DNA of 64,000 nt from Prochlorococcus sp. AG-355-O17. Its GTDB lineage: Bacteria > Cyanobacteriota > Cyanobacteriia > PCC-6307 > Cyanobiaceae. Positions within the stretch are counted from its first letter, which is position 1. Every line of letters begins with the position of its first letter. A program made the position numbers and the translations under genes. Shown here in pieces: positions 14,630-29,967 of this stretch. The DNA lies in assembly GCA_003280655.1 (NCBI GenBank), contig QCEK01000003.1, forward strand, positions 1 through 64,000, given 5' to 3'. A model generated the notes under the pieces. The model saw nothing but the letters and a program-made list of their open reading frames with translations. It was not told the origin of the DNA and searched no databases.

Positions 14630-15868
14630 TTGAGCCAGTTAGCCTCCAATTGGTCGTTTGTTGATGACATTAAGGTAACACCTAAGGGGTTTCTTTTTGC
14701 TGGGATATCTGCTGGCTTAAAAGCTTCTAATAAAAAAGATTTAGCACTAATACTCGCTCCAGAAGGAAGTATTTTTAGTGGGATGTTTACCCAATCAATA
14801 GTTCGAGCTTCTTGTGTGGATATTTGTGAGGAAAGGATTCAAACAACTTCAGGTTTTGTAAGAGCAATACTAATTAATTCTGGTCAAGCAAATGCATGTA
14901 CAGGAAATCTTGGCATTCAACATTTTCAAATTGCTACAGGCAAGATTGCGGAACTTTTAGAAATAAAAGAAGAAGAAGTTTTAATGTGCTCAACTGGTGT
15001 AATTGGTGTTCCAATACAAATCAATGATTTAGTAAAAAATCTACCGAATTTAGTTAGAGATTTAAAGGGTAATAATTTTCAAAATGCAGCAGAAGCAATT
15101 TTAACTACTGATTTGACTTTGAAAAAAGTTTCAATAGAGACGATTATTCAAGGTAGAAAAATAAAAATAGCAGGATTTGCAAAAGGTTCAGGAATGATTT
15201 ACCCCAACATGGCTACAATGCTTGCTTTTATAACCTGTGATGCGGGTATTGAAAAAGAAGATTGGGACAAAATGATTGCTATTGCAGTTAAAAAATCTTT
15301 TAATGCAATATCAGTTGATGGAGAGACAAGCACAAATGATTCTTTTGTTGGAATAAATGCAGGAGAGAAAATTGAAAGAAGGTTTTTCCCAATTATCCAA
15401 CAAGGGATTGATATCGTATGTCAAAACTTGGCAAAAAAAATTGCACGTGATGGAGAGGGAGCAAATTGTTTATTAGAAGTTTTGGTTCAAGGAGCAAAAA
15501 ATACTGATGATGCAATTGTCATCGCGAAATCTATTTGTAATTCTGCCTTAGTAAAAACTGCGATACATGGTTGTGATCCGAATTGGGGACGAATCATTTC
15601 TGCCGCAGGCAATTCTGGAGTTAAATTTAATTTATATGAGGTTGACTTGTATATAGGAAACGCTCAGATTTTGGAAAAAGGCAAGTTAAATAAATATGAT
15701 CCACAAAAAGTCACAGACTATATTAAGTCCAGAATGAGAGGAAGATATTTAGTTGATGATATTGTAAAAATTATGATCAATTTAAATTCTGGTGAATCGA
15801 AAGGCACTGCTTGGGGGTGCGATCTTTCTAAAACGTATGTTGAAATAAATAGCGAATATACTACTTGA
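14630..15868 (+). CDS. argJ: Bifunctional ornithine acetyltransferase / N-acetylglutamate synthase
   Basis: This enzyme recycles the acetyl group in arginine synthesis. The 412-residue precursor self-cleaves before T196 in the PNMATMLAF motif, giving alpha and beta chains. The start is a TTG at 14630. The last codons (N-S-E-Y-T-T, TGA stop) lie in a 19-bp sequence that is repeated 2.37 kb downstream with a TAA stop in phase. The present 3' end therefore appears to be one side of an insertion boundary. The enzyme itself looks intact. Confidence 0.95.
   Translation: MSQLASNWSFVDDIKVTPKGFLFAGISAGLKASNKKDLALILAPEGSIFSGMFTQSIVRASCVDICEERIQTTSGFVRAILINSGQANACTGNLGIQHFQIATGKIAELLEIKEEEVLMCSTGVIGVPIQINDLVKNLPNLVRDLKGNNFQNAAEAILTTDLTLKKVSIETIIQGRKIKIAGFAKGSGMIYPNMATMLAFITCDAGIEKEDWDKMIAIAVKKSFNAISVDGETSTNDSFVGINAGEKIERRFFPIIQQGIDIVCQNLAKKIARDGEGANCLLEVLVQGAKNTDDAIVIAKSICNSALVKTAIHGCDPNWGRIISAAGNSGVKFNLYEVDLYIGNAQILEKGKLNKYDPQKVTDYIKSRMRGRYLVDDIVKIMINLNSGESKGTAWGCDLSKTYVEINSEYTT
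15848..15866 (+). repeat. Left copy of 19-bp direct repeat (argJ 3' end)
   Basis: The sequence AATAGCGAATATACTACTT encodes the last six argJ residues. It is repeated perfectly at 18215-18233, and the flanking bases differ on both sides. The copies bracket the restriction-modification pair, as an attachment-site duplication or a homology-mediated insertion would. Confidence 0.85.
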
Positions 15869-15875
15869 TTCAAAA

Positions 15876-15892
15876 CCATTGCAGGGCAATGG
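15876..15892. other. Perfect hairpin just after argJ
   Basis: The arms CCATTGC and GCAATGG enclose a 3-nt loop 7 bp after the argJ stop. There is no T-run after it, so it is not a canonical intrinsic terminator. The half CAATGGATT (15887-15895) recurs near the right island end (18188-18196), so it may belong to the island boundary. Confidence 0.4.
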
Positions 15893-15913
15893 ATTCTAGC
15901 GATTTAAATTATA

Positions 15914-15928
15914 TATAACAGTGTTATA
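15914..15928. repeat. Palindrome TATAACA-G-TGTTATA at left island end
   Basis: This is a 15-bp perfect palindrome with one central base. Its right half, GTGTTATA, is the reverse complement of the TATAACAC motif found at 18089-18096 and 18151-18158. It could be a recombinase or regulator binding site. Confidence 0.45.
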
Positions 15929-15984
15929 ACCCTTGATTTCTACATATTTTTATTTTTTTGATATCTAATATCTTGAACTATCAA

Positions 15985-17034
15985 TTAGATTTGATACCCT
16001 CTTGATTGAATAAATTGATTTATATATCTATTTTCAGAGGATGGAAATTCAATCTTAATTTGTTTTTTTAGTGAATTTATTATTTTATTGCCTAATTTGC
16101 TCTGATATTTAGAATTCATACATTTTGAATACCAATTACTTAATTCAGACAAAGTTATGATCGACTGAATTTGAGATTTTATTCCAAGTTGATTAATTAT
16201 TGATGAAATAATTTTATGTTCTGCATCTTTACAAACGATTATTATTCTATCTGCTTGAATTGATTGATTAATATCAAAAGCAATCTCTTCAGTTAAAGAT
16301 ATGTGTTTTATTTGTATGGCAAGGCCAAAGTTTGCCCACATATCAAGACCTCTATCAGCAGCATTTGTAATTCCAACTCGAAATAGTTTTGCAGGGTATT
16401 CATTTGATGCAAAGGGATTATTTAATCCAAATATTTTTTTAGTGAAGTCTTCAAAATCATTAATTAACTCTTTTTTATCATTATTGATTTGCAACTTTAT
16501 TTTTATTCCCATTTCTTCAATTAAATTCGAAAAAAGAGAATAAACAGTAATTTCATAGATTTTATCAATACTTCTTTTTAGGCCAGGTTTTGATGAGAAA
16601 TTATTTAGAAATTCATTCAATTTAAATGTTAAAGAATTATTTTGGTCGCAGTAATTTAAAGCATCTGAAAGATCTGAAAATTTGTTTTTAAATCTTTTAT
16701 AGATATAAGCTTCAACATTCCCATTATTTTTTTTGTTTTCAATAGCAAGTTCTTTAAGCAACTCTGGAGGAATTGCGTTTTTGTTGAAGAGGTCATCTTG
16801 ATATTTTTGCGATGAAGTTGATATCCTTCCTACTAATAATTTGCAAATTTCATCTCTCCATTTTTTTGATTCATTTCTGTAGGTTTCTAAATCTTCTATT
16901 TCGAAATCACTAAACACTCTATCTCTAAACAATATTTCAGCAATTTGTATGGGTTTGTAAAAATGAACTCTACTTTTTTTTATTAACGAATCTAAGGCAA
17001 TTTTACTTGTTGAATTATCAAAATTTTCACTCAT
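15985..17034 (-). CDS. Type II restriction endonuclease, HaeII-like candidate
   Basis: The 349-residue protein is encoded directly behind a cytosine methyltransferase, with a 4-bp ATGA overlap (17031-17034), the usual arrangement of a type II pair. The stretch RGLDMWANFGLAIQIKH (D231 ... Q241-x-K243) resembles a PD-(D/E)xK-type core with Q in place of E. From memory it recalls the HaeII family, which cuts RGCGCY, but that assignment is tentative. No frameshift is visible, so the enzyme may be active. It is co-directional with, and translationally coupled to, the methyltransferase. Confidence 0.65.
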   Translation of the reverse strand: MSENFDNSTSKIALDSLIKKSRVHFYKPIQIAEILFRDRVFSDFEIEDLETYRNESKKWRDEICKLLVGRISTSSQKYQDDLFNKNAIPPELLKELAIENKKNNGNVEAYIYKRFKNKFSDLSDALNYCDQNNSLTFKLNEFLNNFSSKPGLKRSIDKIYEITVYSLFSNLIEEMGIKIKLQINNDKKELINDFEDFTKKIFGLNNPFASNEYPAKLFRVGITNAADRGLDMWANFGLAIQIKHISLTEEIAFDINQSIQADRIIIVCKDAEHKIISSIINQLGIKSQIQSIITLSELSNWYSKCMNSKYQSKLGNKIINSLKKQIKIEFPSSENRYINQFIQSRGYQI

Positions 17035-17987
17035 ACTGCCATTGGAATTTGTTCGAATCTATTAGTGCATTTCCTTTGTTCTTTTAAACTTTCTATCATT
17101 TGATGAGCGATTAATTTAATAACTGGAACTGTTACTGAGTTACCTGCTATTTTTCTCAACTGAGAGTAAGGAACATTAATAATATAGTTTTCGGGAAAAC
17201 CTTGTAATCTCATCATTTCTCGACTAGTTAATCTTCTTATCCCGTTGACAACTAGATAGTTATAACTTCCACCTGCCCTTAAAGCACAAGAGTATGGAAG
17301 CGCAGATATGTTACCTCCAATGTTTTCGTGCCAAATTGAAGGTATTGGTGCTTCTTTTTTTAATCCATTAAGTCTTTTTTGTTTAAGTCTTTCTGATAAA
17401 AAGTAATTTGATGGAACATTACTATCGTTTTCTAATACTTCTTCAAGTGATTTGAATTTTCCAAGTTTGGTCGGAAATGAAAAATTAATGCGGTTTTTAA
17501 AACCAACTATGTAAATTCTTTCTCTTTTTTGGGGAATACCAAAATCTAATGAATTTAAAATTTGGTAATAAATTGTATATCCTAAATCTTCTAAACAATT
17601 TTTTATTGTTTTAAAAGTTTTACCTTTATCATGATTTTTAAGTCTTTTTACATTTTCTAATAAAAATGCTTGAGGCCTTTTTTCTTTTAATATTTCATGA
17701 ATATTAAAAAATAAAGTTCCTCTAGTATCTTTAAAACCAAGTTCTTTTCCGGCGATACTGAAAGGTTGACATGGAAATCCTGCCAAAAGAATATCGTGAT
17801 CAGGAATGTCTTTTGGGTTGATTAAATTAATATCTCCGAAAGGTATTTCTCCAAAATTTGCCTCATATATTTTTTGTGCATATGGGTCTATCTCACTAGA
17901 AAAAACATTTTTACAACCAAAAGACTCAAATCCCAGTCGCAACCCTCCTGCTCCAGCAAATAAATCTATTGTTTTGTAATTTTGCAT
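17031..17987 (-). CDS. DNA (cytosine-5-)-methyltransferase
   Basis: This modification enzyme adds a methyl group to C5 of cytosine, shielding the host's sites from the partner endonuclease. The 318-residue protein shows the ordered C5-MTase motifs: I (LFAGAGGLRLGF, residues 9-20), IV (GFPCQPFSIAG with catalytic C73), VI (ENV 111-113), VIII (QKRER 152-156) and X (GNSVTVPV). It is transcribed first, with the endonuclease after it. Recognition specificity cannot be read from the sequence by eye. It lies within the repeat-bounded islet at the argJ end. Confidence 0.93.
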   Translation of the reverse strand: MQNYKTIDLFAGAGGLRLGFESFGCKNVFSSEIDPYAQKIYEANFGEIPFGDINLINPKDIPDHDILLAGFPCQPFSIAGKELGFKDTRGTLFFNIHEILKEKRPQAFLLENVKRLKNHDKGKTFKTIKNCLEDLGYTIYYQILNSLDFGIPQKRERIYIVGFKNRINFSFPTKLGKFKSLEEVLENDSNVPSNYFLSERLKQKRLNGLKKEAPIPSIWHENIGGNISALPYSCALRAGGSYNYLVVNGIRRLTSREMMRLQGFPENYIINVPYSQLRKIAGNSVTVPVIKLIAHQMIESLKEQRKCTNRFEQIPMAV

Positions 17988-18088
17988 ATTTGAATTATAA
18001 GTTTTTTTTCTAGTTTGATAACTTATTAATTTCGAAGAACAATATTTTTCATTAAAAAATATTTATTTTCCAACTGTTGTAGCACTTT

Positions 18089-18158
18089 TATAACACCACC
18101 TTAGTAATAGCAGTCGCTTTGACCCTGTCAAAAATGGTTTGTAACACCTATATAACAC
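18089..18158. repeat. TATAACAC motif cluster upstream of the methyltransferase
   Basis: TATAACAC occurs at 18089-18096 and 18151-18158, and the related GTAACACC at 18141-18148. They lie in the 240-bp region upstream of the methyltransferase that holds no other gene. They may be operators of the R-M genes or arm sites for the islet. Confidence 0.4.
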
Positions 18159-18214
18159 TAATCTTAGAACAAAGAACCTAGTGATACCAATGGATTTGCC
18201 GGTATATTTGTATC

Positions 18215-18233
18215 AATAGCGAATATACTACTT
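18215..18233 (+). repeat. Right copy of 19-bp direct repeat
   Basis: This is an identical copy of 15848-15866. In the argJ frame it reads N-S-E-Y-T-T followed by TAA at 18233-18235, a fossil of an argJ terminus. It also contains the stop codon of the small minus-strand gene at 18228. The ancestral argJ and that gene would therefore have overlapped tail to tail by 8 bp. Confidence 0.85.
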
Positions 18234-18470
18234 AAATTTTAGTAAATCTAATGGTAGATATTCATTAATATAGAGAAAAAGTATTGTAAAAGTTCCAATT
18301 ACCGAGCCTATAAAACCCCCAAAAAAATTAACCAATAATCCAGATTGTCTAATTATTGTTTCTTCGTTTTCTTCTTCATCAAAATTAGGAGAATCAACTA
18401 CTTTTAAGCGCTGATTGGTTGTTGGTTGTTTAAGTTGTTGGTGTCGGATGAGTGCTTCGAAATCAGGCAT
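18228..18470 (-). CDS. Small hypothetical protein with one C-terminal membrane segment
   Basis: I do not recognise a family. From the preferred ATG (18470) it has 80 residues: a polar, acidic N-terminal half (EEENEE) and one hydrophobic segment rich in glycine and phenylalanine (NFFGGFIGSVIGTFTILFLYI) near the C-terminus. A start at 18494 is also possible. The 5' part overlaps the end of the ParA-like gene out of frame by 67 bp (91 bp with the longer start). Being next to ParA, it could be a membrane partner, but that is only inference. The stop codon lies in the 19-bp repeat. Confidence 0.55.
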   Translation of the reverse strand: MPDFEALIRHQQLKQPTTNQRLKVVDSPNFDEEENEETIIRQSGLLVNFFGGFIGSVIGTFTILFLYINEYLPLDLLKFK

Positions 18471-19075
18471 GGAATTTGTGAGGCAATTGAACAATAAGCA
18501 GACCAGCCCGTCATTCGACGAGGATCTGATCTACCTAAATCGTCTACAGCTTCAAATACAGCATTGCCCGAAGCTTCTGCTTTATCAAAAGCTGAAAGTA
18601 ATGGTATAAATGTATCAAAAACATACAAACCAAAATTTTCTAGAGCTGCTTTGGCTTGTTGCGCTGCTTTTTGCTGTCTAAAATCAACTTTTACTATTAC
18701 TACTGCATGGTTAACTTTTAAGTTGCTTAATAAATTAGCTAGTTCAACAGTTAATTCTACTGATCTTGCTTTTGCAGTGGTAGGTAAGATAACTAAATCT
18801 GAACCATACGCTAAGTGTTTTAGTTCTTCTTGATCACTACTAGCCTGGCCATCAGTTATTACAATTTCTGATGATCGTGATGCTTTAGCAGCTGAACTAA
18901 CCGGGAAAACTGGAAATGGAAGATTGCCTCTTGATGCGTACGCTAGAGCAGATCTATTTTTGTCGGCATCGACTATGCAAACTTTTTTACCTTCAGAATG
19001 CCAAACACTTGCAAGGTGAATACTCGTACAGGTCTTGGCCACCCCCCCTTTTTGTCCGCAAACGGTAATGAACAA
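18404..19075 (-). CDS. ParA/MinD-like P-loop ATPase
   Basis: This is a deviant Walker ATPase of 223 residues with KGGVAKTCTS at residues 9-18, the switch stretch VDADKNRSA and a later ITDGQASS motif. The family positions chromosomes, plasmids or protein complexes such as carboxysomes. No ParB or partition site is nearby, so an orphan ParA that places some cytoplasmic cargo is plausible. The C-terminal tail (about 25 residues, rich in S/N/Q) overlaps the downstream small membrane-protein gene out of frame. Confidence 0.85.
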   Translation of the reverse strand: MFITVCGQKGGVAKTCTSIHLASVWHSEGKKVCIVDADKNRSALAYASRGNLPFPVFPVSSAAKASRSSEIVITDGQASSDQEELKHLAYGSDLVILPTTAKARSVELTVELANLLSNLKVNHAVVIVKVDFRQQKAAQQAKAALENFGLYVFDTFIPLLSAFDKAEASGNAVFEAVDDLGRSDPRRMTGWSAYCSIASQIPCLISKHSSDTNNLNNQQPISA

Positions 19076-20333: not shown

Positions 20334-20486
20334 TTTGCAAGATTCGATTTTTAATAAGATAAATTAATTTAAAACTTATCTTCTTAGTATTTATACTTAT
20401 AAAATTAAAAAAATTCTTTTTAATACAAGCATTTGCAGCAATATTTACACACTAAAAATTATCTATTACAACTTCTTTGTTATTTA

Positions 20487-20511
20487 AAAAAGTGGAGTCC
20501 TTCCAGACTCC
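20487..20511 (-). terminator. Intrinsic terminator of ssrA
   Basis: On the minus strand the arms GGAGTC and GACTCC (20511-20494, 6-nt loop) are followed by A-C and a run of six T residues. It closes the tmRNA transcript. Confidence 0.75.
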
Positions 20512-20775
20512 TCGTATCATTTGGTTGATAAGGCTGATATAACCCCATCTCCTTTAGGATCAAGCAGCAACTGGTGCTGTTTGACGGGAGAAACTAACGA
20601 TTTTGTTAGCATTTGTGTTTTTGCTCTAACCGAGCCGGCTTCAGTCACCTTCCTTATGCCCCGTCGAAACCATTACAACCCCAAATAGTGGAGTTGAGCG
20701 GAATCGAACCGCTGTCCGAAACATCGGTTGAGATCACCTAGTCCAATTGGACATTTATATTCTGACAGGCAAAAT
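20487..20775 (-). ncRNA. ssrA: Transfer-messenger RNA, circularly permuted two-piece form
   Basis: This RNA rescues stalled ribosomes and tags their products. On the minus strand the acceptor piece comes first: T-arm GGTTCGATTCC, 3' strand CAACTCCA. After only a few bases the coding piece starts with GGGGTTG at 20682. GGGGTTG pairs fully with CAACTCC, including the G3-U pair recognised by alanyl-tRNA synthetase. The tag frame (20610 to 20560) reads ANKIVSFSRQTAPVAA then TGA, the tag I know from Prochlorococcus. The 5' boundary near 20775 is approximate. Confidence 0.95.
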
Positions 20776-20812
20776 GGTTATTGAATAGTTTTTTTACTAA
20801 GTTTTATCGTAT

Positions 20813-29598: not shown

Positions 29599-29623
29599 TG
29601 CAGTTAAACAACAATACATTAAA

Positions 29624-29705
29624 TGCGGACGGCGAGACTTGAACTCGCAAGGCCGAAGCCACACGCTCCTTAGACGTGCGCGTCTACCAATTCCGCCACG
29701 TCCGC
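29624..29705 (-). tRNA. tRNA-Leu (anticodon AAG)
   Basis: This is an 82-nt type II tRNA with acceptor stem GCGGACG/CGTCCGC, discriminator A, long variable arm with a TTCG loop, and T-arm GCGAG-TTCAAGT-CTCGC. The anticodon stem CACGT/GCGTG closes the 7-nt loop CTAAGGA, so positions 34-36 read AAG (codons CUN). CCA is not encoded. Bacterial Leu tRNAs of this box usually have GAG, so A34 is notable. Confidence 0.93.
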
Positions 29706-29967
29706 AAAGGGTTTTCAGCAACCGGGGGAAACCTAAACCTTAAAAATATCATACATTATTGGCTGAAATAAGCATGTAGTTCTGAAAGAGTATTTTTGAA
29801 TATGATGAATAATTTTTCTATTGCATAAAACAAATATTTGTACATATATAACGTTCTAGGTTGTATTGTAAAAAATGTCCTCTAATCACTAAAAAAATTT
29901 TGTTAATTATTTTGGCAAATAATTTTTTATTTTAAGTCATTTTCATTTCTTCAATTTAATTTTCATA

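Follow-up and report, generated by a model that had tools for sequence, protein, structure and literature searches.

The argJ 3′ end and the restriction-modification islet

The window studied here (64,000 nt, i.e. positions 1 to 64,000 of contig QCEK01000003.1, forward strand, assembly GCA_003280655.1) originates from Prochlorococcus sp. AG-355-O17 and harbours a 2,367-bp restriction-modification (R-M) islet between argJ and a ParA-like gene, which is probably an integrative cassette that uses the argJ 3′ end as its attachment site. The islet is bounded by an exact 19-bp direct repeat (AATAGCGAATATACTACTT), with both copies on the plus strand (Table 1) and exactly where an earlier note on this sequence had placed them. 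The same two copies and no others were found in the window with up to three mismatches (chance mean 0.04) and in the whole genome (1.59 Mb searched) with up to two mismatches. The note had judged such precision unlikely by chance and, in fact, none of 100 shuffled versions of the window gave two matches to the repeat. It had also described the repeat as the last 19 coding bases of argJ; the repeat does lie at the argJ terminus, but it consists of the final 18 coding bases and, after them, the opening T of the stop codon. While argJ ends with ...ACT ACT TGA (stop at 15866–15868), the distal copy runs ...ACT ACT TAA and, as claimed, encodes N-S-E-Y-T-T followed by an in-phase TAA.

The insert, whose size corresponds to the start-to-start spacing of the two copies, contains just two open reading frames (ORFs) of more than 100 aa, i.e. 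a HaeII-family endonuclease and an adjacent C5 methylase, which overlap by 4 bp and are both located on the minus strand, besides a single 80-aa ORF antisense to the endonuclease. The pair represents a HaeII-type type II R-M system, the specificity of which we take to be RGCGCY. No recombinase ORF was found within the insert, either in the ORF list or by Pfam, in agreement with the earlier reading of an islet that holds only the R-M pair and no integrase. That reading would have suffered if all relatives carried the R-M genes at this position; the HaeII endonuclease was found in only 1 of 266 genomes of the genus, namely the window's own. The distance between argJ and the ParA-like gene in the window is 2,542 bp, i.e. 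the sum of 175 bp and 2,367 bp, and since 175 bp is the commonest distance at empty sites (see below), there is no sign that bases were gained or lost on insertion. According to ARAGORN, no tRNA is present at either border of the insert, the nearest such genes being a tmRNA (20469–20778) and a tRNA-Leu (29623–29706). The tmRNA gene is located 2.2 kb past the distal core, beyond an aldo/keto-reductase-like gene, and is not an insert border.

Empty and filled sites in related genomes

The occupancy of this site was scored between two anchors, argJ and the ParA-like gene, the latter being present in 94 locus entries. The 80 named Prochlorococcus loci (a few of them labelled Synechococcaceae) were the best 80 of 491 argJ matches and are thus biased towards close relatives. 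Among them, 35 were empty, i.e. with one copy of the core, 40 were filled and five could not be scored as they ran off the contig, so that about half of the close relatives scored are occupied (40/75). Together with 20 additional stretches (L033–L052), which were picked for holding two or three core copies and therefore inflate the array sizes, this gave 100 loci (L033–L132) plus the window, of which 88 were kept (53 filled and 35 empty) after dropping L037 and L039, which have no argJ end, six duplicates and the five loci running off the contig.

All 35 empty loci carry one core, as judged by the E-Y-T-T-stop signature, and 34 of them stop with TAA, which is what had been predicted for strains without the islet. 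Their argJ-ParA distance is 175 bp in 31 and 178 bp in the other four. A search of the genus that allowed for one mismatch recovered the core in 139 of 200 genomes, and among the matches listed there are many genomes with two or three same-strand copies located 0.5–6.6 kb apart; in contrast, the signature has no match on the opposite strand of the scanned segments.

The 53 filled loci harbour 77 cassettes of 142–9,043 bp, with one cassette in 34 loci, two in 15, three in three and four in one; for the 40 named filled loci alone the numbers are one in 27, two in 12 and three in one. The same core flanks many different cargos, as the earlier note had anticipated. Repeated insertion at one site, variable cargo and growth to up to four tandem cassettes are the features of an additive island. 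Presence is patchy: on a tree of 75 loci (omitting the named filled locus L104, which has a short flank), 22 changes are needed, compared with 25.0 for shuffled labels (68/500 as low), and at least ten presence changes are forced by well-supported branches. Beyond what had been noted before, the comparison shows that the hotspot is found throughout the genus and also in further genera of this family, that cassettes are stacked in arrays and that the integrase occurs elsewhere.

Some loci hold micro-cassettes with only 142–217 bp between cores and no listed ORF of 60 aa (L129, L122, L035 and L061); remnants and gene-less attachment (att) units are candidate readings of these. In another genome (G042 contig 1, 40.6–63.2 kb; L149 and L150), argJ and at least 16 kb upstream are inverted relative to the ParA-like gene, with the argJ cores on the breakpoint side, possibly due to a core- or cassette-mediated event or to an assembly error.

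Rebuilding of the argJ end

Evidence for insertion into a gene end that is rebuilt by the incoming element is given when comparing the two sides of the filled loci. The proximal argJ end reads N-S-E-Y-T-T-stop in all 53 filled loci despite 34 different spellings and, within E-Y-T-T-stop, the proximal copies vary only in the stop and at the third base of codons. The distal copies, on the other hand, show the T of the empty site at both Thr wobble positions in 53/53 loci, while the intact signature is lost in 21 of the 53 distal cores. The combination of synonymous proximal variation and empty-site spelling on the distal side shows that the incoming element supplies the last argJ codons and that the original end is displaced distally; the synonymy further suggests that selection maintains the peptide at the argJ end. 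Element-type bases begin as early as the Glu wobble position (G in 11/53 proximal copies compared with 0/35 empty sites), while host variants of the Asn-Ser codons remain with argJ, and the exchange point is therefore placed around AGC|GAATATAC.

The core also contains the stop codon of a small convergent ORF (18228–18494), the end of which is thereby kept as well, and this may be the reason why the ACTACTT half is well conserved in decayed distal cores. A similar ORF adjoins the ParA-like gene in relatives, its status as a gene being putative. With an empty site in relatives, a duplicated core and a rebuilt gene end, the locus shows the features of an integrative element at a gene 3′ end. The proposal of site-specific insertion rebuilding the target is supported by the synonymous variation of the donated argJ end, together with the dedicated integrases of relatives.

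Integrases at argJ cores

An integrase profile matched only 3 of 140 cargo ORFs, i.e. those of L104 (527 aa), L102 and L041, the latter two being 57 % identical to each other. The three of the 266 genus genomes with a strong integrase match are the genomes of these very loci; distant relatives of the integrases were seen in a few more. In the family, a profile of four integrases matched 44 of 400 genomes at E≤1e-25. Of the 32 hits at E≤6.2e-66, 31 were examined, the exception being a broken fragment (G529 contig 22), and one of those examined, L197, also belongs to the sequences that make up the profile. In all 31, no more than 262 bp separate the aligned portion of the integrase gene from an argJ-type core (30, including three cores in which one base deviates or is unread) or from the argJ end itself (one). 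Five weaker relatives were also examined and no argJ-type core was found, using the E-Y-T-T signature for L142–L144 and a looser signature for L237 and L238. No solved structure matched the profile A1 at E≤0.01.

Two integrase classes were distinguished by position: class A is located at the distal core, and class C right after argJ or another core. Outside the genus, 20 genomes were taken for high-scoring argJ matches and not at random; in eight of them, the genome's own argJ end (N-A-D-Y-T-T-stop, ≤1 mismatch) recurs within 10 kb downstream. The integrase-bearing elements of other genera measure 3.6–10.3 kb between cores (12 measured). Two loci of the same genus, namely L197, which is filled and holds an integrase, and L191, in which 10 kb show no second copy, agree in the sequence past the core and constitute an independent empty/filled pair.

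In the window's own genome, no argJ-type integrase was matched at the limits used. It encodes two tyrosine-recombinase matches, one among core-type genes (389 aa, contig 5) and one beside a tRNA-Ser gene (404 aa, contig 28), which were rejected as the cognate enzyme considering that their likeness to the argJ integrases is no better than E 0.25. The second (G000, L147) lies on a 4-kb contig, which is possibly a tycheposon fragment.

Attachment-site arms shared by cassettes and integrase-bearing elements

Both ends of the cassettes sort into a small number of types, the left ends forming clusters of 54, 14 and 4, plus smaller ones. In the largest, type A, either arm carries direct repeats with a spacing of 11 bp, with an autocorrelation at the 11-bp period of z 14.6 on the left and 13.3 on the right (50 cassettes >400 bp); arm-repeat tests were restricted to cassettes of at least 400 bp. 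By eye, the repeat word varies by subtype (TATAAC, GACAC, AAACAC, TACCAC, GCTTAC and others). Regardless, left and right arms of the same type-A cassette match each other, with 10.9 shared 7-mers compared with 6.4 after permutation (0/2000 as high). The window cassette belongs to type A, with the repeats ATATAACAGTGTTATAAC on the left and TGTAACACCTATATAACA on the right.

The spacing and position of these repeats connect the cassettes with the integrase-bearing elements. In all nine class-A elements of other genera, a repeat with 11-bp spacing follows the left core at +46 to +48, and another precedes the right core at −76 to −78. Among the integrase-less type-A cassettes, a left repeat is found in 42/49 at +42 to +49 (43/50 when including the integrase-bearing L104), compared with a mean of 3.9 and a maximum of 8 out of 50 type-A cassettes in shuffled controls, and a right repeat in 41/49, most commonly at −75 (13 cassettes) with a spread from −71 to −119. 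In the window, the left repeat is located at +44 and the right one at −75. TGTGA-type repeats were seen at +69 to +72 in six class-C elements from other genera, and all 13 type-B cassettes carry an 11-bp repeat, ten of these at +68. By plain alignment, 13/13 type-B left ends are nearer to class C and 39/49 type-A left ends nearer to class A. For the window ends, assignment by plain alignment was ambiguous and was abandoned in favour of arm position, which suggests class A for the window cassette. The element L213 of another genus, with 3.6 kb between cores, contains an integrase and a YadA-anchor protein as its sole ORFs of at least 90 aa, the latter being of the kind that Prochlorococcus cassettes carry most often.

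Further features of the cassette ends were seen by eye. Motifs like the small inverted repeat CCATTG-CAGGG-CAATGG follow argJ in many type-A cassettes, and the class-A elements L197 and L213 have a second repeat pair in the region matching the outer right arm. In L077, L038, L034, L044 and L125, cassettes were observed with a left end of one type and a right end of another, which suggests that neighbouring cassettes fused once the core between them was lost.

Table 1. Features of the argJ locus in the window (offsets are given after the left core or before the right core)
Feature	Position	Strand	Evidence and remarks
argJ, target gene	14630..15868	+	ORF, listed start TTG (start as listed); PF01960 ArgJ, E 3.4e-129
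att core, argJ-proximal copy (attL)	15848..15866	+	exact 19-bp repeat; proximal end NSEYTT-stop in 53/53 filled loci
Small inverted repeat CCATTG-CAGGG-CAATGG, just within left end	15876..15892	.	from sequence
Left arm, two 11-bp-spaced repeats, ATATAAC and TTATAAC separated by AGTG (ATATAACAGTGTTATAAC)	15913..15930	+	6/7 matches, offset +44
HaeII-family restriction endonuclease, cargo	15985..17034	-	PF09554, E 1.4e-141; PADLOC REase_II; 1/266 genomes
C5-cytosine DNA methyltransferase, cargo	17031..17987	-	PF00145, E 6.6e-95; PADLOC MTase_II
Outer right arm-like repeat TTATAACACC	18088..18097	+	from sequence, unscored alone
Right arm, two 11-bp-spaced repeats TGTAACACCTATATAACA	18140..18157	+	offset -75
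att core, distal copy (attR), displaced original argJ end, in-phase TAA	18215..18233	+	exact repeat; empty-site spelling
Small convergent ORF, 88 aa, stop inside core	18228..18494	-	no Pfam match; putative
ParA-like gene, right-hand anchor outside insert	18404..19075	-	PF01656, E 4.6e-13

Cargo

The 140 cargo ORFs (≥60 aa), about 40 of which were run singly against Pfam in addition to a group of 29, are diverse. This group is the largest by similarity and 25 of its 29 members match the Pfam YadA anchor; by eye, most of them show a signal-like start and a shared C-terminal tail, with variable middles, and argJ is possibly a surface-variation locus. Cassettes with this cargo include L046, L050, L090, L103 and L107. 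Other cargo comprises restriction enzymes, helicases (DnaB-like among them), methylases, a thiamine-binding protein, PEBP, BtuR/CobO, HNH, TPR and trypsin-like proteins, and L102 and L041 additionally carry a serine recombinase. A ParB-N6/N4 methylase is common to the class-C argJ elements L102, L229 and L230 and is perhaps a hallmark gene of this class. No capsid or conjugation families were recognised in the proteins scanned, save scattered weak hits in one TPR-repeat protein, and no conjugation family in those of the integrase-bearing relatives.

Origin and mobility of the islet

Empty and filled sites, target rebuilding, tandem arrays, an integrase clade linked to the cores and a shared att geometry are all seen in the genomes compared. 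In our view, the islet in the window is an integrase-less cassette which was integrated by an argJ-specific integrase acting in trans (probability about 0.85). The 2,367-bp islet would represent a non-autonomous integrative cassette carrying one defence unit, the HaeII-type R-M pair. Its circular form would carry an attP site composed of the right arm repeats, the core and the left arm repeats, and a tyrosine recombinase of the argJ-specific clade would join the attP core to the argJ end. The crossover lies to the left of the first Thr codon, so that the cassette gives argJ its last codons and stop and the original argJ end moves to the far side, beside the ParA-like gene. Neither the cassette nor the rest of the window genome yielded such an enzyme, which would therefore most likely act in trans, encoded by one of the rare elements of this class that bear an integrase. 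Recombination by this clade, action in trans, excision, the circular form and the route of transfer are what we infer. It is also tempting to speculate, at even odds, that picocyanobacteria possess a trans-acting gene-cassette system, in which cassettes without an integrase (surface proteins, R-M systems and others) form a pool across the population and depend on rare integrases specific for argJ, the latter gene then being an integron-like exchange locus of Prochlorococcus with arm-type att sites in a housekeeping gene.

Several observations weigh against this picture. The arms of the in-genus elements do not fully follow those of other genera: in L104 (class A) the left repeat is at +46, but the right one is at −88 instead of −76 to −78, and the class-C loci L102 and L041 have no left repeat of the kind found in class C of other genera. 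Plain local alignment places both window ends closer to class C than to class A (left, 33 vs 26; right, 27 vs 24), as it does 17 of the 49 type-A right ends. In type B, the members of which are alike, testing for arm pairing gave a negative result (14.0 vs 15.0). No helper was found in viral contigs searched with the L102 integrase, profile A1 and the core pattern, nor was anything found in phage records searched with three integrases, and plasmids gave one weak integrase match (24.5 % identity, E 5e-6). Finally, only 1 of 12 shared-cassette pairs is clearly more alike than its flanks, which is why cassette-versus-flank identity was rejected as proof of transfer.

The last point, i.e. that 11 of the 12 pairs are no more alike than their flanks, would also fit an immobile relic which lost its integrase after entry and now spreads by homologous recombination of the argJ and ParA flanks. 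The presence of the integrase in just 3/266 genomes and the 21/53 distal cores without an intact signature point in the same direction. A relic would, however, be expected to lose its arms, whereas arm repeats persist at the expected place in 42/49 integrase-less type-A and 13/13 type-B cassettes (ten at +68), left and right arms match within a type-A cassette, and the donated argJ ends are diverse yet synonymous. We therefore consider the relic unlikely, although it is the most serious competitor.

Integration by the host tyrosine recombinase on contig 5 (Xer-like by reading only), as in Xer-exploiting elements, would need no outside helper, the gene being in the window's own genome. Directly repeated arms, however, point to an arm-binding integrase, a dedicated integrase clade adjoining argJ cores exists, and the host enzyme is unlike its members (best E 0.25), which makes its involvement improbable. 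Even less probable is a small tycheposon: the host genus, the tyrosine recombinases and the cargo islands agree with published descriptions (PMC10872708), but none of the tRNA border, the 4–200 kb length and the own tyrosine recombinase is found in the islet. A chance repeat or a local duplication of the argJ tail, for which the AT-rich DNA and a repeat of just 19 bp could speak, is excluded by the comparative data, since cores recur in one and the same position in 53 loci whose cargo differs and the signature has no opposite-strand matches, in line with the shuffles.

How flexible genes are gained and lost in the streamlined genomes of Prochlorococcus, a photosynthetic bacterium abundant in the ocean, is a central question, to which tRNA-targeting tycheposons are a recent answer (PMC10872708). 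The argJ hotspot represents a second route, which targets a protein gene and differs from strain to strain. YadA-anchor surface proteins and restriction systems would be plausible weapons against phage. As both site states, the cores, the arms and the candidate integrases have been delimited, the mechanism lends itself to direct testing, and for engineering purposes the argJ core may offer a natural landing pad.

Comparison with known integrative systems

The literature searched yielded no account of argJ as an integrase or prophage integration site, in Prochlorococcus or generally, which holds for these searches only. Our comparison confirms the earlier finding and extends it, the islet being one cassette of an integrative system directed at argJ that is found throughout the genus and in further genera of the family. 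Tycheposons targeting tRNA genes in Prochlorococcus have reportedly been described by Hackl et al. in 2023. They have a tRNA border, a length of 4–200 kb and their own tyrosine recombinase (PMC10872708). The argJ cassettes share with them the host, the use of tyrosine recombinases and the niche cargo, but tycheposons differ in their tRNA target, in size and in carrying the recombinase inside. The islet, with its 2,367 bp between argJ and a ParA-like gene, no tRNA border and no recombinase ORF, was therefore rejected as a tycheposon.

Protein genes are known as targets from other elements. The integrase of phage 21/e14 targets icd, and the element rebuilds the gene. SGI1 is described as integrating at the trmE 3′ end, and other islands at dusA. 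The icd elements and SGI1 carry their own integrase. The argJ cassettes resemble such elements in targeting a protein gene, with icd likewise rebuilt by the element, but most of them lack an integrase and their target is argJ.

In the way it works, the islet resembles cis-mobilizable elements (CIMEs) and additive islands. The integrative and conjugative element (ICE) ICESt1 sits at the 3′ end of fda. CIMEs by definition retain attL and attR but have lost the integration and transfer genes of an ancestral ICE or integrative and mobilizable element (IME) (PMC5704250). As in this ICE/IME accretion, argJ cassettes keep attL and attR (in the window as exact cores with arms on both sides), are without integrase or transfer genes, and stack at one gene end; the window insert has no integration or transfer genes. 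In contrast to CIMEs, argJ cassettes are 0.14–9 kb long and often hold one gene, with no conjugation family recognised in the scanned proteins, the integrase-less state is their commonest form and not an occasional decay product, and their integrase-bearing relatives in other genera are also small.

For Methylopumilus, an additive flexible genomic island is described in which 20-bp ends of tRNA-Lys are repeated (PMC10872708), and which shares with argJ the repeated gene-3′-end copies, the variable cargo and the streamlined pelagic genomes. Compared with this island, the argJ target is a protein gene, and the integrase clade, arm sites and single cassettes are resolved here. The argJ cassettes also resemble the gene cassettes of integrons and integrase-less cassette arrays, being small, often limited to a single gene, arrayed at one site and probably served by an enzyme from elsewhere; in integrons, however, attC is located beside intI, whereas an argJ att site consists of a core and directly repeated arms in a housekeeping gene.

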